Source: a virus
IMG/VR virus record: IMGVR_UViG_3300021368_001102
Coordinates: 1-26,168 of that record
Direction: 5' to 3' (one strand)
DNA: 26,168 nucleotides
A program made the position numbers and the translations under genes. Position 1 is the first letter of the stretch. Every line of letters begins with the position of its first letter. Under the pieces are notes generated by a model. That model searched no databases, was not told the DNA's origin, and was given only the letters and a program-made list of their open reading frames with translations. Of the stretch, positions 7,855 through 25,894 are shown piece after piece.

Positions 7855-8457
7855 TTATGTAGTAGATATCGTCCTCAGGTAATCTCCATTAGTAAGAGTT
7901 GCCTCAGATGTTCCATCTTGTGCTCTTTGGATATTATCCAAAGTGTTGGTTGATTTTCCATTATATGATATCACTTCATTATTTATCAAAATTTTACCTT
8001 GGGTGGGAAATTTTTCTAGTGGATTCCCAGTAGTAGACTGGACTGTTATAGTAGTTGATACTATAGAATCAAACAATGCTCCAGAAAGATTAACTGATGG
8101 AACTGCATACCCACCAAAGTTTTTATTATCTCTATCAATAGTAGATAATGGTCTTATTACGAAGGTATCCAACGTTAATGTGGGATTTTGATCAAAAATA
8201 GATATAGGTGCTACAGAAACTACAGGAGGATTTCCATCGCCATTTATATCAGTAGTCATTTGGTAGGTTATAGTACCATATTCAACAGCAGCATTTTTAC
8301 TAAAAGATTGCCAATGTCCTATAGTTGGTGCATTTCCCTTAGCAAATTGTTCTGATACTCTAACTGTACGTTGTGTTAATTCAAAGTTGGCAACATTAAT
8401 TTGATCGCCATTTTGTAATCTAACAGTTACTGGTTTTTGTAATTTTTTTACTGCCAT
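7855..8457 (-). CDS. Probable baseplate-associated structural protein, 200 aa
   Basis: I do not recognise a named family. The protein starts MAVKKLQKPVTVRLQNGDQI and is rich in beta-prone sequence, with no signal peptide or membrane segment. Residues about 150-184 contain FPTQGKILINNEVISYNG followed by a short turn and RAQDGT. This is a copy of a module found at least three times in the upstream gp7-like giant (residues about 88-122, 1370-1408 and 3302-3334). Its ATG shares one base with the stop of that giant (TAATG at 8457), which implies translational coupling. T4 has nothing between genes 7 and 8, so this is an insertion relative to T4. A structural role next to gp7 and gp8 is inferred from coupling and the shared module. 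Confidence 0.85.
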   Translation of the reverse strand: MAVKKLQKPVTVRLQNGDQINVANFELTQRTVRVSEQFAKGNAPTIGHWQSFSKNAAVEYGTITYQMTTDINGDGNPPVVSVAPISIFDQNPTLTLDTFVIRPLSTIDRDNKNFGGYAVPSVNLSGALFDSIVSTTITVQSTTGNPLEKFPTQGKILINNEVISYNGKSTNTLDNIQRAQDGTSEATLTNGDYLRTISTT

Positions 8458-11400
8458 TAGTTTAGACCTATTTCGTCAGTATTGATGGTTTCAATAAAGT
8501 CATCTGTAGATCCTTGATCTATCTGTACTGTAATATTACTATCTATGCTATCAACGGTAACCTCTGCAGATACAGGATCAACACCGGAAGTAACCTCAGA
8601 TACACTATCTAAATCTAGATTATCATTATCTAGGGTTACTACGTCTTCAGGGAACTTAGTAATTTCTTGTGCTTCAATCTCTGGACCAATAATTAATTCT
8701 GCACCTTTATCAATCTGTGCTGTAATATTACTATCTATAATATCAATGGTAACCTCTACAGATACAGTATCAGCAACAGAAGTAGACTCAAACTCAACAT
8801 TAATATCTAAATTATCATCATCTGCAGATACTACATCTTCAGACTTAGTAATTTCTCGTGCTTCAATTTCTGGTACAGTGATTAATGTTGCACCTCTAAC
8901 TTCAGAAGTTAGAACTTCAATTTCGGATTGAATTGTTATAGCAGATACATCAAGTACAGATTCTTCAAGTTCAGGTGTTGGGGTTGCTGGTTCCTCTACA
9001 ACAGTGATAAGTTCACTTACGCTATCAATAACGTCAATCGTTACCTGATTATCATCAACATCAATAAACTTAGTTAGTGGTTCAACAACTGCAGCAGCAA
9101 TGGTTGCAACTTCACCGCCTCCTGGAACGAAGTTGGTTAGTTCAATCGTGGTTGTTTCTAGGGATACGGATAGAATTGTCTCGGTTACTGGATCAACAGT
9201 ATCAACATCAATAATTATTGATGTGGATTCTGGTTCTGTTAGAGTTAGTGCAGCATCAAATTCGTAGAATAGAGTTACGTTAGTTTCTTCGACATCAAAT
9301 ACAGCGAATGCTTCTGCGTCAGCAGTGGATTCATAGAACTTGAATATTGGTGTTTCGGTAGTAGAAAGATCTAAACCTCCCTCAGCAAGTATATCCAGAA
9401 CAACGTTGATTCTAGTCTCACTCTCTTGTTCCGGAGGTGAAACAGATCTAGGAGTATTTTGAATAGTTAAGTTAATATCCGCACGGACACTTTCAATAGA
9501 TACAGTCTGTAATTCATCTTCGATGAAGTAAGATAGTTGAGAATCATTCTGTACTTCTGGTTGTGTTACATCTAGATTAGGAACAGTTATGTAATTAACT
9601 TCTGTAGATGCAGTAATTGGTGCAAATACTTCTGGTATTTCAGTATGAATATCTTCTCTGATAATACCATTAATATTTTGATTCTCTAGGTATAGATAGA
9701 CTAATGTTCCAACAGGATGAATTGCGGGAGATACAGTACCTCTTTGTTCCCTAGAAGTAATGAAGAATCTATCTGGAAGTGTTCCATTGTAGGTAACTAC
9801 TTCACTACCAACCTGTAGTTCCCCTTCTGATGGGAATCCTGATGTGTTGGTAACAAATAGAACTGTACTTCCCGCTACGAAATCAATATCAACAATAGTT
9901 TGTGTCTGCTCAAAGGATTCAGGATTAAATGGACCAAAGAAGTCCCCAGCAAAACTATCTGTAAATATTATAGTTCTGGAACCAGTACTAGATGGACTCA
10001 GAAGTTCTGGAGATTCTGCAGTGATAACACTATCAAAGAATCTAGAAACCAGATTTTCTCTTCTTATTACTGGCGCTATAGGAACAACAGAGTCTGGGAT
10101 GAATAATGTAACGGGTTCTATTTGGAAAGTAGGTTCAAGACTTTCAACATCAAATTCAGACTCCAAGAATAGAGAAATATCTTGAGACACAATTTGAGCA
10201 CTTTCTCCTAGGTCAACAAAGATATTGACATTGTTTGGACCAAATGGATCCACAATTGTAAATTCTTTACCTACAATTTTAAGATTGTTAACATTAAAAT
10301 TAACATTAACTATCCTATTAAAAGATGGAGATGCTTTTCTATTGGATTTGTTGATTGTAAATCCTCTAGTTATAACAGGAATAGGAGGTTGAGTATATCC
10401 AAATCCTCTGTTAATAATACTTACACCTACTACAACACCACCCCAAAGATCAACTTTTGCATATGCTCCGCCACCTTCACCGTTTACTGGAATGAAATCA
10501 ACATATACATTATTACGATAACCAGCACCAATATTACGTTGCTCCTTAGTTAATGCTTCAAGTAAATTATCTTTACCAGTTATAACTCTAGAAACTCTAC
10601 CTTCAGAATCTAAAACTGGCATTATATCAATTCCAGCTCCGGGAGGAATTTCATCAGAAGGTGATACTATAATAGATCCATAATGCTGATCCGCATTATG
10701 ATATCCTCTATTATACTGTGTTGTTATTAGATTATCGGGTACACCTAAAACTTTTCTAAAGTTCTTTTCACCATCAATTCTTATTTCATCGCCCTCTAAT
10801 AACTTTGAGGTCAATCTATTTAAAGTTCTGCGTTCAGTGTTCTTTTTGGGATCATCAAACAACCAAGGATTTGTTCCGCGTTGTAATACACGTTCATTGT
10901 TCTCATTTACTTCAAAATTTAAATTGATATCTGCGGCAACAACAATGGCAGTTTCGTTAACTGTTACTGTAAATCCATCACCAACTGCGATGTTTCCATA
11001 AACATAAGTTTCTGGTCCAGGGAATGTTAAATTTTCATTGATAAAGATAGCAAATACAAATTCTAAATCTGGTTGATTACTATATGGTCTGCTAAATTTT
11101 ATAGGTTCATCAGAAGTAATTGTTGTTGGATTACTATCTAATTCAAGTCTAAATCTAATTCCTGGGTATGGATCATCATCCGCTATTCTTTCGTATGATA
11201 TTACAGTACCTACAGGTTTATCATTGGCAGATATAACAGTGAGACTAGTGTTATTGGTATAACTACCACCATACCATGTATTAATTACATCAAAGAAATC
11301 AAATTCTAATGGATCGTAGTATAATTCAAGTTCAGCAGCTGCTGTAAATTCATTAGGTAAGAAATTAAATCCGGTAAGTATATTTGTAGATTGGTCTCCC

Positions 11401-14400
11401 CTGAATGAAATTATATCAACAGTTGAAATAGATGGTGCGCCTGTATCTGGTTCAAAATAAGATAATTTTTCTGTAAAATAAATCTTAGTTTGATTAATTC
11501 TATAATCAATTTTGTTTCTTTGAAGTACACCATTTACAAAAACAAGATGATACCTATCATCAAATATTGGGTCTATTATTCGTTTAGTTTCTGCATCAAT
11601 AATTGAGAATACGGCAGAAGATGCCATTTTCTTAGTATCAACTGTCCTTCTGTCATACGGTCCAATAGAGAAAGCATGGAAATATTCTAATGCTGTTCCT
11701 TGATTTAATAACAGTTGTGCATCACTTTGATCCCAAATTGGCGCAGAACTAAATTGAATTTTATCAGTTTCTAATTCATTTTCAGATCTTACTATACTAT
11801 AAGCAGATGGTCTTTGTAGAACACCATTTAAAAATACTAATAAATCTTCATTAATTTCAGTTTTTAGTATGTCACCTTCATCTTTGTAAAGTTCAAACAG
11901 AGTGTTTTCTCCATTAAAATAATCTGGTAGTGAAATTTCTACAAAATTAGTACCATTAACTAAAACACTATCTAGAGATAACCTTAAGGTATAGAGAGCA
12001 GAAATTACATTAGCACACTCAGCACCAAACCACACTCCATCAATTTCTGTAGAATTTAGTAAGTCAGTATCATCTAATATGTTATAATTTGAATACGTTA
12101 ATATGTTAGTGTATTCACCAGACCTTTGTGGATTTGTAAAGGATCTTTGAATTAAATTTGGTCCATTAGTAAGAGTATCAGAATATATTCCTGCAAAAGA
12201 ATCTATCGTTGATTTAACCTGAGCACAAACATTTAATGGGTTCTCTACATCTGGTTGAACTTCATAATTTACTGTTTCGAATGGAGCTCCAGGATTCTCA
12301 ATAGCGTCCTTCATTAATTCAAACGCAAAATTATAGGCAGCAATAGTTTCAGTTAATTCATTAACAACATAATTTAATTGATTTGCTACAAAATATTTTT
12401 CTGCACCATCAACAATCCTATTATTTCCACCATATAGTAAGTGGAACACCACAGAATCAATGACTAATCCAATATCTCTTCTACATGACCCCTCAGATAA
12501 TCCAGGGAATGTGAATGATGGGAATGTAGTGGTAATATAATTAATTGTTTCGTCAATAATATAACTTCTGTTAACTTTAATTAGATTTGCAGCATCTACA
12601 AAAGTACCAGTATTAATTCTACTTAAAGAAAATCTAACTTGTCTTAATCTGGCAACAGCACTTTCAACAATTACCGTAATTCCATTATTAATAATTAATG
12701 ATGCGTCAGTTAAAATATTAACTCCATTATATTCAAATTCAATTTCTGTACTTCCTCCAGGTGGAAGTATAACTTCACCGGCAGGAATTTCAAAAATTAT
12801 AGATCCATTTTCAGTGATATCTGCAAATGAGTTATTACTTACACGAATATTAGTTTCGTCAACAATTTCTATAATTCTGGTATCCATTGGGAATTGATTA
12901 CCGGAACTTAGATACATTCCCTCAACTAATCCAAAAGTTGATGGTACAGTAATTAAATCGCTAGATGCAGAAACGATAACTTCAAATTCTGGAGCTAGTG
13001 TATTGGGATCATCAATAAACGCCACATCCCAATTTCTAATTGCTGCAGCACAAAGTTTAGCAGCATAAAAATATGCTTCTCTAGTTTCTTCTAATTCATT
13101 ATTAACAAAATTTAATTCGTTTGCAGCATTAAAGTAAGATTCCCCTGATAGGATAGTTTTGGAATTACCACCAAATCTTAAGTCGTGCTCATAAGCATCA
13201 ACGATAAGACCTATGTCTCTTTTGCACTTAGATGTGTCAAAAATAGTTGAAGGATACTTATTAGTGATATATCCAAAAGTTTCTTCGATTATAAATTCTC
13301 TATTAAAGTGAATTTGATTGGCAGCGTCTAACCAGATGCCACCACGTTGAAAAATATTTCTAACCTTAGTAAAATATTTTTCGCTGTCTGAATCTTCAAC
13401 ATAGTTAAATACTTTTCCAATAAAGGAATCTGCAACCAATGCTTGACCTTCAGATTCTCTTGGTCCTAAGGGTGCTTCACTAAAAGTAATCGTAGAACCA
13501 CTTACAGTATAGGCAACTTTTGGTTCTTGAATAACATTGTTTAATGAAAAGACAAATGCAGTCTCGTCATAAGGAGAAACGGGCAAATCAGTTTTTTTGT
13601 CGTATATAGTGAATGTTTTAGTTCCTCTTCGTTGATTAGTAATATTATCAATAAATCCATTAAATTCTGGAACCAAATATACATCGTCAGCATAATCTGT
13701 TGCGCCAGCTCCACTTCCTAAGAGTGCAACTCTTCCAGTACCATCCTGATAATTTGTATTACCGCAAGATACAATTCGTTCAGTTAATAGTATACTGCTT
13801 GTTAAGGTAAATGCTTCTTTTACACCAGCATTAACAAATATTGCAACAGGTGTTGATTGTTGAGATTCACTGGTTATAATTTTAGCAGGTTTTGCTTCAA
13901 TTAGAACTTCACCAAATAATTCAAATCCTGCTGGGTGAACTACGTCCTTAATTAGTTCTCTCCAAAGATCAATTGGCGTTTTGGATCTAATTACATAAGA
14001 ATAGTCTTGGTAATAGTATGAATCTGTTATCTTAGAATTTGAATCATTTAAAATACCTTTTCTGGAAGCGTACCTACCGTTCTTATCATAGAATGATTTT
14101 AATTCGGGTTTATAATTTGTGTATAAAATTGATAATATAGTTGTTCCATTAAGAGGATATTTTTTAGATATTTCGCCAAAAAGATTAGTTAACTTTACTA
14201 AATTAGTTCCTTGTTTGTATTGACTTACTATAGCTCTAAAAGTTAAATTACCATTGGAATCAAACTGAGATACCGTACTTCCATTCGCAAACTCATCCCC
14301 TACTATTCCAGATACAAGAACAGTATACGTTGAGGTGTAAGATGGTACAGTAGATAAATCTGAAGAATATAGTACACCAGGATTGCTTATTGTAATAGAT

Positions 14401-17400
14401 TCAGGAATTCCTATATTATTAGAAGAAGCATATAGATTATTACTTCCTTCTATAATTTTAACAACAGGATTATTTGCATATCCAGAACCGGAAGACAATA
14501 CAAGAATTGAAATAACTGTTCCATTCAATACTGTTGGTTTAAATATACCTTTCTTTTCTCCACCTTCTACAATAACAACAGGATTAATATAGTCAGAACC
14601 AACACTAGTAATATTAAAAGATGTTATTGATCCGTTATCAACATTTGCTGTTGCTGTAGCTTCCCTAAATGTAGGACACTCAATACCCTGTACAACAGGA
14701 ACGTCAACAAAACCAAAACCTGAATTTGTAACCGAAATAGTATTCAGAAGTCCTGTTGCATTATTACTGGTAGTTGTGTATACAATATCACCAGTTCCAT
14801 TTTCTTGTGGTTCTGTATTTACTGAATATAAAAATTTGTTATTTGTAACAAATCTAAGATTTTTTTCTCCTGATAGGGGATCATTTGTTATTGAAAGTCT
14901 AGATCCATTAGTATCTACTCCACCAGCAACAATAAAATAGTAATAGAACGAAAAATTATTAGTAACAGTTTCTGTGTAAGAATTCGTTTCTAATGCAGGA
15001 CCGAAACCAAACTTTAACGCCACAAACGCTCCCGCAGTTCCTGGAGTAAAATCAGAAACAGTTTTTTCTAAAGTAATTAAATTGTAATTTGTACTTGGGG
15101 AGAAATCAAGAAACGTTCCTGTCATGCTAACATGCTCTGTTGAGAACACATAGCGATATAGATTTTGAATATTGATATTTGGATTTACCAAAAATTCATT
15201 TGTTGGCGCATCTTCAGCAAACTCTAATTTAAATATTTTATCACTAACAGTATCTAATATTACTTCTTTAGATTCTGTGCTTTGATCCTTGATAAGACTA
15301 GTTTCTCCTAGACTCTCTGTTGTTGATGGAGATGGTAAAGGTAGAGCACCAGTATTGTCCCAAGCAAGAGTTAAAATTTGTGTTTCTTTATCATAAGAAA
15401 ATACTCTAGGGTTTAAAATTGGATCGTTTCCAATTTGATCTATAAATTGACCAGGAATGAATCTATATTCAAAATTGTAGAATGAAATTTTAGCTCCATT
15501 ATAATGCTCTACTATTTTTGTTCCCTCTTGACCTCTCTCTACAGTTATTAATTCTTCAGTATAATCTACACTAATAACTTTTACAATTTCATCATCAATC
15601 AATAGCAAGTCATCCTGAGATACATTTTCTACATTATTAACTTGCAATACGGTATTTTCTTTAGATAGTCCAGAGTGATCTACCCTAGCAGTGAATACAA
15701 ACTCTGGTTCCATATAGACACCAAAGTCTGTTAAAAATACTAACTCGGATGGATTTTGAGGATCTGTTACTAAATCAGCATCAAAAAATAAAATTTTACC
15801 CTCTGCAAAATCAGAACCTTTATCTAATATAGTTACATCAGAAATTGAATTATAAACTTCAAATGATACTTGAATACTAGCATTAGCACCACCAGTTTGT
15901 ACCACTTCCAATACTTCATTCTGTTGATATCCAAGACCAAGTTCAGATAAACTTACAGATTGAATAGCACCATTTATATCAACTTCGTCAATATTAATGA
16001 ATAGTCCCTCTCCTGTGCTTCCTGCAGATGCTTGAGTTTTTACTCGTTGTCCTGCGGTATAACCCGTTCCTGGATTTGTAATAACAAAAGATGGTTTGTT
16101 AAAATTATCAAATTCTGAAATTACTACTTCTACAGTTGCATTACCTAATGTGGTATTAAAAGTTCCTGTTGACCTAAACAGTCCTCCATTAAGTAAAGTA
16201 AGTTTGCCAATGCCGGTATCAAATAAACGTGCAGATAAAGTTTGATTAATTAACTTAACTTCTTGGAATAGTCGTTTCCTCACATAATAAGTTTTTTCTG
16301 TTAATACATCATCGGGATTTACAGAAATATTAACAAAATCTCCAACAGATAAATTGTGATTTGAATTTGTTTTAGCAATTGCCAAATTGTAGTCAAAAAT
16401 TGCAATTTCTATATTTTTACTAAGAGACCTTGTGGAAAATATACCAACACCGGTAGAATCACTTAAATTCGAACTTCTTAAGAATAAAGATGGATCGGTA
16501 ATACCTAAATCAAAATCTCCACTATTTACCTTTATTCTTACTATATTTTGACGTATAGTTGTTTCAAGAATAGTACCGACAGCAACTTCATTTCCAGGTT
16601 GCCCATTTGTTAAGATTATTTGGGAGTTTGCTGTAAAACTTGCGTTATCATCTAGTACAACGTTTAAAACTTGGACTACAGCATTTGTGTTGGGGTCTAC
16701 TAAATCAAACAAGTCCGTATCAGAAAATTGAGTTTGAATATTTTCTAACGCAATAGTTGTACCAAATCTAACATCACCAACAATATTAGACTCATATCCA
16801 GTATTTTGTTGTCTTAATTTAAATTCATCAAACAAATACACTTCAGATGCTGCTGTAAAAATACCAGCACTTTTTTTAGATCTCAAATAATCAACATCAG
16901 CACCAAAAACTGAAGCAACCTCAGATTTTACATCTTGTCCTTGCGTTCCATTTAAATCTAAAAATACTTTATTTCCTGGGTTGTGATTTGTCTGTGCTGA
17001 ATCTACTAATATAGATGTAATAGTTCCTGATTTTATTGACGATACTGTTGCAGAAAAATCTTTCCCGTTATCAAGAAATTCACTAAAGTTTATAAATTTA
17101 GAAGATCTTGGAATTTCTGTTTGTGAAATTTCTGAATTATAATTTGAATCAACAGGAACTCCATAATAATTCTCACCAATTATGTATGGATATTGAGGTT
17201 CTCCAGCAGCAGATACGGTTACAAAATATGCATAGGTGCCATCAGGGTACTCCGGAGTGACGCAGTATCTGCCGTTGTTGCGGTCTAATCTCTCCTTACC
17301 ACTATCTACAGTAGGAGACCATGTATAATCGTCTACAAAAGATCCTAGAGGGTATATAGAGGTACTAGGTCCATTGCTTCTAGAGGTATTGATTGCATAT

Positions 17401-19739
17401 CCAGTTTTTAATCTCACCACAGAAGACTGCGAATCTAAGGGATCCTCGTATCCATATGGTCCATAGATAGGATTTCCATCATAAGCAAATCCTAGAATCT
17501 TAGAGTGACCTGATGGATTCTCATTTAATAGAGAATTTATATTGTCTCCTAGTTTATTTCTAAGTCTTCTTGGATTTGATAAAATACCATAAGTCAAGTT
17601 AGAACTAAATTTTTTGTTTAGTAAAGCACCACCATTAGGATCGATTTCTGCTGATGTGGTTTCTGTGTATCTGTTCTTATACCATTTTCTAATTTCTACG
17701 GTTGCTGCAGCATCTTTACCTACAGGAACAACAGTTGCTATCGTATCAGTGGCACTATAGTTAAAACCTGAGTTTGTAATATTAAATCCAATTATTCTTC
17801 CATTGCTAGAAATTAAAGTTTCAACTTCAGCAAATTTTCCTTTTCCTGAAAAATCTGTAAATTGTATAGTTGGAGGTGAAACATAATACTCACCAGCATC
17901 TTCGATTACTAGACTGGTTAATTTGCCTTGTGTTATGATGGGACGTACCTTACCTCCTCTACCAGATGTAATTACTATACTTGGCGTTCTTTGATAAGTC
18001 TGAGTCGTAAGAATTTCTATCTCACCAACAACATTTCCTGCTAATCTAGATATTGCTTTTGCTGATGAACCATTAACTAACACAACTGGTGGATTAACAT
18101 ATCCAGATCCTTTATTTGTGATAGTTACAGTTTGTATAGGACCGTATCTTACAAAAGAATCACTCTTAGTACCATATGCTAGTGTCCCATCAAGAAGAAC
18201 TCCAACATCGTAAAAATCAGTTTTATAGATTTCAGTATTTGATATTGGAGATTTTCTAATTAATTTTAAGTACTTATTATCTTCTAAACTGCCAGTTGCT
18301 GTAGTCCCATCTAGTATATTTGTTGATGGATAACCAGATGAACAAATATAAAAATATGTCTCGTCTTCAAATATAGCAGAAACATCTGCATTTGTAGTGT
18401 CTAACTGTGACTGCAGTAATGGAAGTGATGGTGCAGTAGGTCTTTGACGGTTTTGATTAGAAATCCATCTATAATCACCAGTTAGATCGGAATATACTAC
18501 AGTGTCTACGCTAGACTTTGCTGAAGGAGATTCTAGAATTTTATCACCAACAGATGAATAAGGTTGCTTGTTAGTTGGTAATAACTGATATATTACCGCA
18601 CTTACATGAAATTTAACTGAATCAATATTATATGGATTTTTATTGTAAATTTTAGTTCCAACTGGATAAGATGAAGTTCCAGTTCTGGATGAAATTTTAA
18701 ACTGATTTACATTTCTATCGTCAATAACTAATTCTTCATTTCCGACATATACTTTATTATCCTCTAATTTCCAAGACCTGGTAGAAACTACTTCGAGTGT
18801 AAAATTAGAAGTATCTGTTGATTGTATTTCTGAACGAGTTTCAGTAAGTCCATAATATGCAAAATTTCCGACAACTGAACTTCTATCAACAATTAACTTG
18901 GTTACATTACCGGGAAGAGTTTTTACATCTTCAACTACAAAAGATGCAAAAGGAGATTGCTGTACAATTTCTTTTCCAATCAGTGAACGTGGATCACCAG
19001 AGATTAAATCAATGATAATATCAAAACTGGAAATCCAATCAGACTCTGATGCTTTTGTAGTTTGCTTAGATGGTCTTCTAATAGACACATCCTCATTTTT
19101 TGGATCTTCTGATACTAAAGTGTTGAAGACAAATTTAATTGATTTCTCAGATCCTTTTGCTTTATAAAAATCTGTAATATTTTTAATTAAAGTTCGTTTA
19201 TCTACAGATTTTTTTAGATATTTGGTTGGGATTGATGCTAGATATTGAGACTCAAAACTTTTTAATATAGCAAATAAGAATAAATTGCTTATATTTTGTA
19301 CAACGGCACCAGAAGCATGAGTAGCAGTTGTAGTAGCAACATATTTTGTATTATTATACAGGTCACCTAAAGTAGTATTTCCGCTTACTCCTCTAAGAAC
19401 ACCTTCAAGGACGTTGCCATTTTTGTTAGAATAAAAACAAATTTCGTCATCTATTTTTACATACCCGTATTGTTGAGGAAAAGCAGATCCATCAACTAAT
19501 TCAATTTCTGTGTCGGTAGATGATAATGAAGATGCAAGAGTTGTATCTTCACTAAGAATATTTTTTGTGTAAAAATTAATGTCGTAGTACGAACTTATAT
19601 TAGATAAGATATCTAAAGGTTGACCCTGTATTTCTAAACTTTCGTAATATTTTTCGAGAAAATTTGAAAAGGCAGCATAATGAGTGGAGATAAACTCCGG
19701 TAATTGCCTTTCAATTAAACTGGATACCTTTACCGTCAT
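8457..19739 (-). CDS. 7: Giant gp7-like baseplate wedge protein, 3,760 aa
   Basis: Two blocks resemble the C-terminal part of T4 gp7 (1,032 aa) as I recall it. The first is DFYKAKGSEKSIKFVFNTL (about residues 190-208) followed by FDIIIDLISGDPRSLIGKEI; compare gp7 DFYSTKGIEASYKFLFKVLY. The second is VIRSKTPIDLWRELI then VVHPAGFELFGEVLI (about 1910-1945); compare gp7 KSNLPSSRWKSDVIRFVHPV. In T4 these lie close together; here about 1,700 residues separate them and another 1,800 follow. Added elements: FPxxG...DDEI modules (about 88-122, 1370-1408, 3302-3334), a YHYH-like domain (about 740-850), many GxGYxxPPxV beta repeats, NGVLQ-type repeats (near 2080, 2650 and 2745), a duplicated CxRDIGL helical domain (about 2120-2236 and 2366-2480) and a 63-aa acidic tandem repeat near the C-terminus. 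It follows gp6 directly. In T4, gp7 forms the wedge core with two gp6 copies. The gp7 assignment is from motifs plus gene order. Confidence 0.85.
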   Translation of the reverse strand: MTVKVSSLIERQLPEFISTHYAAFSNFLEKYYESLEIQGQPLDILSNISSYYDINFYTKNILSEDTTLASSLSSTDTEIELVDGSAFPQQYGYVKIDDEICFYSNKNGNVLEGVLRGVSGNTTLGDLYNNTKYVATTTATHASGAVVQNISNLFLFAILKSFESQYLASIPTKYLKKSVDKRTLIKNITDFYKAKGSEKSIKFVFNTLVSEDPKNEDVSIRRPSKQTTKASESDWISSFDIIIDLISGDPRSLIGKEIVQQSPFASFVVEDVKTLPGNVTKLIVDRSSVVGNFAYYGLTETRSEIQSTDTSNFTLEVVSTRSWKLEDNKVYVGNEELVIDDRNVNQFKISSRTGTSSYPVGTKIYNKNPYNIDSVKFHVSAVIYQLLPTNKQPYSSVGDKILESPSAKSSVDTVVYSDLTGDYRWISNQNRQRPTAPSLPLLQSQLDTTNADVSAIFEDETYFYICSSGYPSTNILDGTTATGSLEDNKYLKLIRKSPISNTEIYKTDFYDVGVLLDGTLAYGTKSDSFVRYGPIQTVTITNKGSGYVNPPVVLVNGSSAKAISRLAGNVVGEIEILTTQTYQRTPSIVITSGRGGKVRPIITQGKLTSLVIEDAGEYYVSPPTIQFTDFSGKGKFAEVETLISSNGRIIGFNITNSGFNYSATDTIATVVPVGKDAAATVEIRKWYKNRYTETTSAEIDPNGGALLNKKFSSNLTYGILSNPRRLRNKLGDNINSLLNENPSGHSKILGFAYDGNPIYGPYGYEDPLDSQSSVVRLKTGYAINTSRSNGPSTSIYPLGSFVDDYTWSPTVDSGKERLDRNNGRYCVTPEYPDGTYAYFVTVSAAGEPQYPYIIGENYYGVPVDSNYNSEISQTEIPRSSKFINFSEFLDNGKDFSATVSSIKSGTITSILVDSAQTNHNPGNKVFLDLNGTQGQDVKSEVASVFGADVDYLRSKKSAGIFTAASEVYLFDEFKLRQQNTGYESNIVGDVRFGTTIALENIQTQFSDTDLFDLVDPNTNAVVQVLNVVLDDNASFTANSQIILTNGQPGNEVAVGTILETTIRQNIVRIKVNSGDFDLGITDPSLFLRSSNLSDSTGVGIFSTRSLSKNIEIAIFDYNLAIAKTNSNHNLSVGDFVNISVNPDDVLTEKTYYVRKRLFQEVKLINQTLSARLFDTGIGKLTLLNGGLFRSTGTFNTTLGNATVEVVISEFDNFNKPSFVITNPGTGYTAGQRVKTQASAGSTGEGLFINIDEVDINGAIQSVSLSELGLGYQQNEVLEVVQTGGANASIQVSFEVYNSISDVTILDKGSDFAEGKILFFDADLVTDPQNPSELVFLTDFGVYMEPEFVFTARVDHSGLSKENTVLQVNNVENVSQDDLLLIDDEIVKVISVDYTEELITVERGQEGTKIVEHYNGAKISFYNFEYRFIPGQFIDQIGNDPILNPRVFSYDKETQILTLAWDNTGALPLPSPSTTESLGETSLIKDQSTESKEVILDTVSDKIFKLEFAEDAPTNEFLVNPNINIQNLYRYVFSTEHVSMTGTFLDFSPSTNYNLITLEKTVSDFTPGTAGAFVALKFGFGPALETNSYTETVTNNFSFYYYFIVAGGVDTNGSRLSITNDPLSGEKNLRFVTNNKFLYSVNTEPQENGTGDIVYTTTSNNATGLLNTISVTNSGFGFVDVPVVQGIECPTFREATATANVDNGSITSFNITSVGSDYINPVVIVEGGEKKGIFKPTVLNGTVISILVLSSGSGYANNPVVKIIEGSNNLYASSNNIGIPESITISNPGVLYSSDLSTVPSYTSTYTVLVSGIVGDEFANGSTVSQFDSNGNLTFRAIVSQYKQGTNLVKLTNLFGEISKKYPLNGTTILSILYTNYKPELKSFYDKNGRYASRKGILNDSNSKITDSYYYQDYSYVIRSKTPIDLWRELIKDVVHPAGFELFGEVLIEAKPAKIITSESQQSTPVAIFVNAGVKEAFTLTSSILLTERIVSCGNTNYQDGTGRVALLGSGAGATDYADDVYLVPEFNGFIDNITNQRRGTKTFTIYDKKTDLPVSPYDETAFVFSLNNVIQEPKVAYTVSGSTITFSEAPLGPRESEGQALVADSFIGKVFNYVEDSDSEKYFTKVRNIFQRGGIWLDAANQIHFNREFIIEETFGYITNKYPSTIFDTSKCKRDIGLIVDAYEHDLRFGGNSKTILSGESYFNAANELNFVNNELEETREAYFYAAKLCAAAIRNWDVAFIDDPNTLAPEFEVIVSASSDLITVPSTFGLVEGMYLSSGNQFPMDTRIIEIVDETNIRVSNNSFADITENGSIIFEIPAGEVILPPGGSTEIEFEYNGVNILTDASLIINNGITVIVESAVARLRQVRFSLSRINTGTFVDAANLIKVNRSYIIDETINYITTTFPSFTFPGLSEGSCRRDIGLVIDSVVFHLLYGGNNRIVDGAEKYFVANQLNYVVNELTETIAAYNFAFELMKDAIENPGAPFETVNYEVQPDVENPLNVCAQVKSTIDSFAGIYSDTLTNGPNLIQRSFTNPQRSGEYTNILTYSNYNILDDTDLLNSTEIDGVWFGAECANVISALYTLRLSLDSVLVNGTNFVEISLPDYFNGENTLFELYKDEGDILKTEINEDLLVFLNGVLQRPSAYSIVRSENELETDKIQFSSAPIWDQSDAQLLLNQGTALEYFHAFSIGPYDRRTVDTKKMASSAVFSIIDAETKRIIDPIFDDRYHLVFVNGVLQRNKIDYRINQTKIYFTEKLSYFEPDTGAPSISTVDIISFRGDQSTNILTGFNFLPNEFTAAAELELYYDPLEFDFFDVINTWYGGSYTNNTSLTVISANDKPVGTVISYERIADDDPYPGIRFRLELDSNPTTITSDEPIKFSRPYSNQPDLEFVFAIFINENLTFPGPETYVYGNIAVGDGFTVTVNETAIVVAADINLNFEVNENNERVLQRGTNPWLFDDPKKNTERRTLNRLTSKLLEGDEIRIDGEKNFRKVLGVPDNLITTQYNRGYHNADQHYGSIIVSPSDEIPPGAGIDIMPVLDSEGRVSRVITGKDNLLEALTKEQRNIGAGYRNNVYVDFIPVNGEGGGAYAKVDLWGGVVVGVSIINRGFGYTQPPIPVITRGFTINKSNRKASPSFNRIVNVNFNVNNLKIVGKEFTIVDPFGPNNVNIFVDLGESAQIVSQDISLFLESEFDVESLEPTFQIEPVTLFIPDSVVPIAPVIRRENLVSRFFDSVITAESPELLSPSSTGSRTIIFTDSFAGDFFGPFNPESFEQTQTIVDIDFVAGSTVLFVTNTSGFPSEGELQVGSEVVTYNGTLPDRFFITSREQRGTVSPAIHPVGTLVYLYLENQNINGIIREDIHTEIPEVFAPITASTEVNYITVPNLDVTQPEVQNDSQLSYFIEDELQTVSIESVRADINLTIQNTPRSVSPPEQESETRINVVLDILAEGGLDLSTTETPIFKFYESTADAEAFAVFDVEETNVTLFYEFDAALTLTEPESTSIIIDVDTVDPVTETILSVSLETTTIELTNFVPGGGEVATIAAAVVEPLTKFIDVDDNQVTIDVIDSVSELITVVEEPATPTPELEESVLDVSAITIQSEIEVLTSEVRGATLITVPEIEAREITKSEDVVSADDDNLDINVEFESTSVADTVSVEVTIDIIDSNITAQIDKGAELIIGPEIEAQEITKFPEDVVTLDNDNLDLDSVSEVTSGVDPVSAEVTVDSIDSNITVQIDQGSTDDFIETINTDEIGLN
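8514..8894 (-). repeat. Tandem 63-64-codon repeat at the 3' end of the giant gp7-like gene
   Basis: Two adjacent copies (about 8706-8894 and 8514-8705) encode residues about 3616-3678 and 3679-3742. Both read G-A-x-L-I-x-x-P-E-I-E-A-x-E-I-T-K, then DVV, then an acidic DNDNLD or DDDNLD turn, then VTxDxIDSNITxQID. Similarity is also clear at the DNA level, for example ctgtaatattactatct in both copies on the plus strand, so the duplication is fairly recent. Confidence 0.85.
12310..13375 (-). repeat. Duplicated helical CxRDIGL domain inside the giant gp7-like gene
   Basis: Two diverged copies of a domain of about 110 residues are encoded at about 13,035-13,375 and 12,310-12,650. Shared features in order are a DAAN...R.(Y/F)IIEET or IIDET helix, a C(K/R)RDIGL motif, a GGN turn, a (Y/N)F.A.(E/Q)LN(Y/F)V.NEL.ET helix and a closing AAKL or FEL helix. 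Segments like CRRDIGLVIDS followed by GGN recur, to my memory, in structural proteins of marine myoviruses, but I know no named function. Confidence 0.75.
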
Positions 19740-24618: not shown

Positions 24619-24789
24619 TTAAACTCGCTGTAGTTGTTTTGCGATGAGTTTGCCTGTGAAATCATTTTTAACGTGATAGGGGATTGTGATGCTGTGCTCA
24701 TGTTTTGTGAAGACATAGTGTGATCCACCGTTACGTTTTTTAGTCCAACCTTGCAACTTAGCAAGTTTGAATAGTTGTTTCGTTGTCAT
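24619..24789 (-). CDS. HicA-like mRNA interferase family protein, 56 aa
   Basis: The frame runs from the ATG at 24789 to TAA at 24619. The protein begins MTTKQLFKLAKLQGWTKKRN, then GGSHYVFTKHEHSITIPYHV, then a GKLIAKQLQRV helix. This is the compact double-stranded-RNA-binding-like layout of HicA/YcfA proteins: an N-terminal helix ending in GW, a G-S-H segment with the catalytic histidine (H24), a beta strand ending in IPYH, and a closing helix equivalent to the L..ILKQ helix. The length is normal for HicA (about 55-85 aa). Its ATG overlaps the upstream stop by four bases (ATGA), so it depends on translation of the 66-aa gene. No HicB-type antitoxin is visible. It could act as a toxin, an RNase against host mRNA, or a non-catalytic RNA-binding protein. 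Confidence 0.75.
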   Translation of the reverse strand: MTTKQLFKLAKLQGWTKKRNGGSHYVFTKHEHSITIPYHVKNDFTGKLIAKQLQRV

Positions 24790-25018: not shown

Positions 25019-25192
25019 TCAGTCGCGGTCTGAAATGTTCCAGGTGCCAGACTGTACCTCAGGGGCAGGAAATGGGAAGGGGCGACCCTCAGCAAATGCC
25101 TTGCGATTAGCGGCGGATCGTGCCTGCATCTGATTGTAGCGGGTGGTATAGTCTGCCAGGATTGCGGCGAGGTCGATCTTAGGGTTGGTCAT
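25019..25192 (-). CDS. Small hypothetical early protein, about 57 aa
   Basis: From the ATG at 25192 the protein begins MTNPKIDLAAILADYTTRYN and ends TWNISDRD. An in-frame ATG at 25216 would add MTSVQTKQ, but it overlaps the TATAAT of the upstream module and may not be in the transcript. The first half is probably helical (AAILADYTTRYNQMQARSAA); the second is Pro-rich (GRPFPFPAPE). No family recognised. GC content is high (35 of 60 bases at 25081-25140), unlike the structural genes. Confidence 0.65.
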   Translation of the reverse strand: MTNPKIDLAAILADYTTRYNQMQARSAANRKAFAEGRPFPFPAPEVQSGTWNISDRD

Positions 25193-25271
25193 TTGCTTTG
25201 TTTGAACTGAAGTCATTATAGGCACAGGCGGGGGCGGTCTGGGGTCGCCTCTGTGCCAGTTAGGCAGGTGG
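25190..25271 (-). repeat. Hairpin/TATAATG module, copy 1
   Basis: This 82-base element on the minus strand ends at the ATG of the 57-aa gene. It has CCACCTGCCTAACTGGCACAG, a second arm ending CGCCTGTGCC, then TATAATG and a 24-base leader ending AAACAAAGCAAATG. The GGCACAG/CTGTGCC inverted repeat matches copy 3 exactly, and both copies are 82 bases. TATAAT is a good -10 box for host sigma-70 RNA polymerase; no convincing -35 was found. Confidence 0.7.
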
Positions 25272-25283
25272 TGTGAGTTAGTG

Positions 25284-25493
25284 TCACCCACCACCGTAAA
25301 CATAGGATACAACACCGGCAGGATGATTCACACCTTCGATAACAGTGAACTCGGTATCTTCATGATCAAAATCTTCAGCATTGAAAAATTGATCGATGAA
25401 AAATTCACGACACTGTGCCATAGATTCAGCAGCGATTACACACATTCCGGGGGTGTAATCACAGAGCACGTTGTTGATGATGTAGAGGTTCAT
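25284..25493 (-). CDS. Small hypothetical early protein, 69 aa
   Basis: From the ATG at 25493 the protein begins MNLYIINNVLCDYTPGMCVI and ends VSYVYGGG. It looks like a compact alpha/beta fold with an acidic middle (FNAEDFDHEDTEF). An in-frame ATG at 25517 would add MVSTTNKA but overlaps the -10-like TATAAT of module copy 2. I recognise no named family, though small proteins of this style are common in cyanophage early regions. The two cysteines (CDY, GMC) are seven residues apart. Confidence 0.7.
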   Translation of the reverse strand: MNLYIINNVLCDYTPGMCVIAAESMAQCREFFIDQFFNAEDFDHEDTEFTVIEGVNHPAGVVSYVYGGG

Positions 25494-25540
25494 TGCTTTG
25501 TTTGTTGTTGAAACCATTATAGACACAAGGGGGGACGCTT
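25491..25540 (-). repeat. Hairpin/TATAATG module, copy 2 (shortened)
   Basis: On the minus strand this copy has AAAGCGTCCCCCCTTGTGTC, TATAATG and a leader ending AACAAACAAAGCAATG identical to copy 3. The 5' arm of the inverted repeat is missing or degenerate, so no strong hairpin forms. Confidence 0.65.
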
Positions 25541-25560
25541 TGGGGGCGATGGTGGACAGT

Positions 25561-25806
25561 TCAGAGATCGCCCATCATGGCGTTCATCTCGTCTGCATCG
25601 ATGGCAGGATCATCCCAACGCACCCCATCGCCCGTGGTGACCAGATGGCGTCCGATCATGCCGTCAGTCATGCAGCGCACGAACTTATCCCAAGGGGTCT
25701 CACCCTCAGCGAACTCTACACACGCCTTAGCGGTGTTGTAAAGAAATTCATCGTTACCAACCCAGAGGGCGGCATTCCAGGTTTCGTAGTTGGCGAATCC
25801 GTTCAT
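25561..25806 (-). CDS. Small NYETWN-motif phage protein, 81 aa
   Basis: From the ATG at 25806 the protein begins MNGFANYETWNAALWVGNDE and continues FLYNTAKACVEF, then a conserved-looking acidic end. The NYETWN...WxxND(E) opening recurs, to my memory, in small proteins of many phages infecting different bacteria, but I know no established function. An in-frame ATG at 25830 would add MVSTTNKA and overlaps TATAAT of module copy 3. GC content is very high (39 of 60 bases at 25621-25680). It is followed by module copy 2 and the 69-aa gene. Confidence 0.75.
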   Translation of the reverse strand: MNGFANYETWNAALWVGNDEFLYNTAKACVEFAEGETPWDKFVRCMTDGMIGRHLVTTGDGVRWDDPAIDADEMNAMMGDL

Positions 25807-25885
25807 TGCTTTGTTTGTTGTTGAAACCATTATAGGCACAGGCAGGGGCGCTTCGCGGTCGCCCCTGTGCCACTTAGGCAAGTGG
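25804..25885 (-). repeat. Hairpin/TATAATG module, copy 3
   Basis: This 82-base element lies between the ArdA-like stop and the NYETWN gene. On the minus strand it has a small perfect hairpin CCACTT-GCCT-AAGTGG, the GGCACAG/CTGTGCC inverted repeat with GC-rich inner pairing (GGGCG/CGCCC), TATAATG, and the leader ending AACAAACAAAGCAATG. Same length and layout as copy 1. Confidence 0.75.
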
Positions 25886-25894
25886 TTTTTCTCT

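Follow-up and report, generated by a model that had tools for sequence, protein, structure and literature searches.

Small genes at one end of a marine cyanophage genome fragment are each preceded by a copy of an approximately 80-bp module that recurs in hundreds of viral sequences. We interpret this module, with a probability of about 0.75, as an early-type promoter of T4-like cyanophages that is positioned by an upstream dyad and doubles as a recombination joint, a reading in which the start sites, the timing and the binding protein are what we infer from sequence.

The window, by which we mean the whole 26,168-nucleotide stretch of an IMG/VR virus record, encodes gp6, gp25, further baseplate proteins, PAAR and giant structural proteins, and is syntenic with S-PM2, S-WAM2 and S-RIM32. 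On the basis of this gene content and synteny, its source is assigned to a Synechococcus T4-like myovirus (Kyanoviridae). Every gene around the three modules lies on the minus strand, in the order ArdA-like gene (cut), copy 3, DUF7249, copy 2, 69-aa ORF, copy 1 and 57-aa ORF (Table 1); the score of the ArdA-like gene against the Pfam ArdA model was below the Pfam cut-off. A 56-aa protein with a HicA-like toxin domain (Pfam PF07927, PHROG toxin) is encoded at 24619-24789 on the minus strand, with no obvious HicB neighbour beside it. The 3760-aa structural protein encoded at 8457-19739 (minus strand) combines a YHYH domain with baseplate-like segments. An N4-type hairpin promoter served by a virion RNA polymerase was considered and dropped, because this large protein is baseplate/structural.

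Table 1. Genes and module parts at the end of the window that carries the three modules
Feature	Position	Strand	Evidence or remark
ArdA-like anti-restriction gene, upstream of copy 3, interrupted by contig end	25895..26168	-	PHROG anti-restriction, E 8e-32
Copy 3 dyad, CCACTT-GCCT-AAGTGG plus CAC	25867..25885	-	Family dyad, fixed distance from -10
Copy 3 central slot, hairpin GGGGCG..CGCCCC without T-run, GTGCC adjoining -10	25835..25866	-	-15.5 kcal/mol alone, z -1.8
Copy 3 -10 hexamer TATAAT	25829..25834	-	Predicted start A at 25822
81-aa DUF7249 protein, downstream of copy 3	25561..25806	-	Pfam, E 3e-32
Copy 2 dyad, intact right half AACTGTCCAC, DUF7249 gene end (TGA stop inside) in place of left half	25552..25570	-	
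Copy 2 -10 hexamer TATAAT	25516..25521	-	Predicted start A at 25509
69-aa ORF, downstream of copy 2	25284..25493	-	ORF and one module missing in relative L124
Copy 1 dyad, CCACCT-GCCT-AACTGG plus CAC	25253..25271	-	
Copy 1 -10 hexamer TATAAT	25215..25220	-	Predicted start A at 25208
57-aa ORF, downstream of copy 1	25019..25192	-	Homologues elsewhere preceded by leaderless or leader modules

The three related copies described in an earlier, sequence-only reading of this DNA are real, all on the minus strand and far beyond chance, the string TGTGYCTATAATGRYTTCA occurring three times in the window vs 0.07 times expected in shuffles. Neighbouring TATAAT hexamers are 313 and 301 nt apart, and the distance from module start to gene ATG (25806 for copy 3, 25493 for copy 2 and 25192 for copy 1) is 82 nt in each case. 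The same reading took copy 2 for a mere 3' half, which is wrong: a full-length profile scores it at 57 bits (E 3.5e-17), beside 61.5 bits for copy 1 and 48.7 bits for copy 3, and finds all three copies at E 1.5e-14 or better with no other match across the window, as a profile whose training set included these copies or close relatives. Judged by this profile, copy 2 is complete and represents a different subtype. The upstream half of copy 3 is identical to that of copy 1 at 38 of 45 positions and its downstream half to that of copy 2 at 34 of 34, so that the copies are mosaics. As a 27-mer, the leader common to copies 2 and 3 had no match in other viruses, and it was therefore probably copied between these two modules in the window phage; the matches of its 16-mer version were unrelated sites. 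On the plus strand, the dyad of copy 3 (25869-25886) reads as a hairpin ahead of TTTTTCTC and may be a terminator for transcription in that direction; no plus-strand gene is evident.

Further copies, for which the earlier reading had proposed a search, exist in the hundreds beyond the window. A weight matrix restricted to the upstream part and the -10 gave 341 matches in viral contigs vs one in reversed sequence, and these were reduced to a non-redundant set of 196 copies. They share the dyad GTGnCAGTT-N4-AACTG-N1-2-CAC, a slot of 28-32 nt and TATAAT, with the family consensus GnCAGTTGnnnAACTGTCCAC-N30-GTGCC-TATAAT-GACTTC-A-GTTCAAAC. Scans started from other ends, anchored on GTGCC-TATAATG or on the dyad alone, recovered the same family, and its members were among the matches listed when the -10/leader core was run against viral contigs; window-like patterns served as seeds for the -10-based scans, which biases these towards the window subtype. 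In nine complete cyanophage genomes, between 1 and 11 copies per genome were found at E <= 0.01, mostly clustered and, within each genome, all on one strand; in S-PM2, S-WAM2, S-RIM32 and Syn9 the clusters are located in small-gene regions. In the genomes of 84,980 bacterial and archaeal species, the 19-mer core had no exact match and the strict dyad pattern only two matches. One of these two, with a -10 and a leaderless ATG at the correct distance, occurs in a contig of a Microbacteriaceae MAG (CALGUV010000127.1, L356:6676) that is probably a misbinned cyanophage contig. In S-PM2 (AJ630128.1, ~21.5-24.1 kb), several modules are followed by ATGs that disagree with the annotated CDSs, which suggests missed or miscalled small genes in this annotation.

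The proposal of a regulatory promoter cassette in front of unrelated genes is well supported by the conservation of the family, by its spacing and by a purine at the predicted +1. The base 12 nt on from the first T of TATAAT is a purine in 195 of the 196 copies (A in 184, G in 11), the A at this place being fixed by the fetch pattern in the leader class and free in leaderless and other copies. The gene ATG falls exactly on this predicted +1 in 43 copies, which we call leaderless; no ATGs are found at positions 13-22 after the first T, and the next cluster begins at 27. Leaderless modules and modules with a leader can both precede homologues of one gene, as in the 57-aa ORF family, where 18 of 32 are leaderless. 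The dyad is present in 152/196 copies vs 9% in shuffles, its CAC lies 29-32 nt from TATAAT in 149/196, and in a search with the dyad only (85 copies) -10-like hexamers concentrate at 28-29 nt (45 copies), with four or fewer at any other position. The -35 box is missing, as had been claimed: matches in the 196 copies were no better than in shuffles, and a sigma-70 scan of the window found no enriched -35 hexamer. Because of the purine at +1, the leaderless ATGs lying on it and the recovery of the -10 at the same distance by the dyad-only search, we read the module as a promoter with predicted start sites. Its early timing is suggested by gene content (anti-restriction, helicase, tiny ORFs) and by the parallel with Syn9 discussed below.

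In the proposed mechanism, the dyad would be placed at about -63 to -43, followed by a free slot that often ends in GTGCC beside the -10. Transcription would start at the purine, and the ATG would come either at once or after an A/C-rich leader of the AGTTCAAAC type, about 16 nt long. Host RNA polymerase would read the -10 and, the -35 being absent, would be positioned by a dyad-bound protein. The slot could house the terminator of the upstream gene, and homologous recombination inside modules would insert, delete or swap genes, since many small genes are separated by these same ~80 bp.

The idea of an operator or activator site at the inverted repeat GGCACAG/CTGTGCC was only partly sustained. 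This repeat does occur in copies 1 and 3, but as a conserved operator it is rejected, and such a site would instead be the conserved palindrome GTGnCAGTT-N4-AACTGnnCAC further upstream. Over the 196 copies, GGCAC at the dyad is found together with GTGC ahead of the -10 about as often as chance predicts (odds ratio 1.02, p = 1), and only the outer A/T step is correlated; GGCACAG/CTGTGCC is thus mostly a coincidence of the right half of the dyad with the GTGCC adjoining the -10. What mutual information there was between upstream columns came mainly from 1-nt shifts and from linkage of subtypes. The dyad is palindromic, its right half being better conserved than the left, and its arms show no RNA covariation beyond shuffles; a comparison with Rfam structured RNA families gave no match above the gathering score. 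As a palindrome without arm covariation, the dyad is better read as a DNA site for a protein than as a stem in RNA. This protein would most likely be an activator, since the -35 is missing and the dyad-to-minus-10 spacing is fixed. A palindromic DNA site of this kind would also be expected if the dyad were an operator for a phage or host repressor that shuts the promoters off, a reading that we consider unlikely: the dyad lies at ~-63 to -43, beyond the polymerase contacts, and keeps a strict spacing to a promoter without a -35, which would be the usual arrangement for an activator site.

If the activator reading is right, the module resembles T4 middle promoters, in which the -10 is kept and the -35 is replaced by an upstream activator site, but the MotA box (TGCTTTA-like) near -30 is missing and a low-information C-rich slot occupies its place. 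Marine T4-like cyanophages are described as having no T4-like middle promoters and as lacking motA and/or asiA (PMC5780444, citing Doron and Thompson). T4-like late promoters differ in having TATAAATA at the -10, where the cyanophage module has TATAATGA or TATACT.

It is distinctly unlikely that the element acts mainly in RNA, its inverted repeats being terminators or 3'-end protecting hairpins for the upstream gene and TATAAT a separate ordinary promoter. A hairpin with a T-rich tail does occupy the slot in 11 of the 196 copies, where about four are expected, the cobS copies in S-SM2, Bellamy and S-T4 contain textbook hairpin/T-tail terminators, and most shuffled versions of window copies 1 and 3 fold less well than the originals. 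However, the mean folding z of the copies is only -0.6, the dyad is free of covariation, and a T-run is missing from most family copies and from all three copies of the window, where termination is therefore doubtful. In dyad-only matches with an intrinsic terminator in the slot (e.g. L237, L255, L314), the dyad-to-minus-10 distance is unchanged, although termination needs no such spacing; the dyad and the -10 therefore form one unit, of which the terminator is an optional passenger.

We regard as very improbable that TATAATG provides the start codon context for a conserved peptide (MTSVQTKQ-), with the repeat being coding or translational rather than a promoter. The reading frame of the gene is shared by this ATG in the window and in 61 of the 86 leader copies, which is more than one third, and in the in-frame leader copies no stop intervenes before the gene start. 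We reject its use as the start codon, because this ATG is out of frame in 25 leader copies and opens a frame that is closed immediately in all 26 leaderless copies having it, because Bellamy and S-T4 have TATAATA and TATAATT at this place, and because that frame contains a stop in Sf-CH1b. The in-frame excess may simply follow from the most frequent leader length, or it may point to a protein form extended at its N terminus and made from read-through transcripts, and with 61/86 in frame some translation of this kind is conceivable.

The description of the module as movable stands with respect to recombination and fails with respect to transposition. In the relative L124, the DUF7249 gene is directly followed by the 57-aa ORF with a single module between them, and the 69-aa ORF is missing; the upstream half of this module is identical to copy 2 at 42 of 45 positions and its downstream half to copy 1 at 34 of 34. 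Recombination of copy 2 with copy 1 would produce such a junction, and the 69-aa ORF would thereby have been lost, or gained in reverse. Evidently, as read from this junction, a gene was gained or lost at least once by recombination exactly inside the module. Throughout the family, half-modules co-segregate with their neighbouring genes: module pairs with only the downstream gene in common have a downstream identity of 0.71 vs 0.60 and an upstream identity of 0.49 vs 0.42, and pairs with only the upstream gene in common have an upstream identity of 0.54 vs 0.42, with the downstream identity not raised (0.58 vs 0.60). An autonomous MITE-like transposing element would explain why many copies precede genes that are unrelated (71 downstream families), but is hardly credible given that half-modules travel with neighbour genes and form mosaic junctions, as recombination predicts, and that each genome carries them on one strand only.

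Known cassettes of T4-type phages offer a partial parallel. The PeSL (promoter-early stem-loop) cassettes, reportedly described by Arbiol et al. in 2010 and Comeau et al. in 2014, are small composite promoter/terminator units located among small variable genes, which are gained, lost and swapped by recombination. The cyanophage module, too, recurs in a variable region of a T4-like phage, between small genes that are unrelated, and genes are likewise exchanged by recombination inside the cassette. In contrast to PeSLs, it has no effective terminator stem-loop in the window, where the T-run is missing (11/196 copies elsewhere have one), and no strong sigma-70 -35 and -10 pair, the -10 standing alone with -35 matches at chance; it is defined instead by an upstream dyad at a fixed distance and includes a leaderless subclass. 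We therefore do not file the module as a PeSL, since the terminator (in these copies) and the full sigma-70 promoter are lacking. PeSLs are sparse in the S-PM2 ORFanage (PMC4503421). The cyanophage modules of S-PM2 lie mostly beside this ORFanage (21.5-24 kb).

A novel early-gene regulatory element was reportedly found in cyanophage Syn9 by Doron et al. in 2016 (ISME J). That element also belongs to T4-like cyanophages and is said to control early genes, and the same dyads as in our family are present in the Syn9 small-gene region at 43-49 kb, with dyads at 44777, 46292, 47207, 48561 and 49081 of DQ149023.2. The Syn9 element is probably the same as our module, or the module is an extension of it. 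The leaderless subclass and the module-borne swapping of genes are not known from that work.

As a tentative and more far-reaching possibility, a dedicated, probably phage-borne (virion-delivered) activator might bind the dyad and recruit host polymerase to the -35-less early promoters of many cyanomyoviruses, about one fifth of which would make leaderless mRNAs, the same element being the recombination joint at which genes for host takeover are traded. With this compact definition of a promoter class, small genes of abundant ocean viruses that lack annotation and are probably early can be recognized. Module positions also correct the start codons of small genes, several of which are missed or miscalled in S-PM2. 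Finally, the analysis of modules shows a route by which small, probably early cyanophage genes are exchanged.
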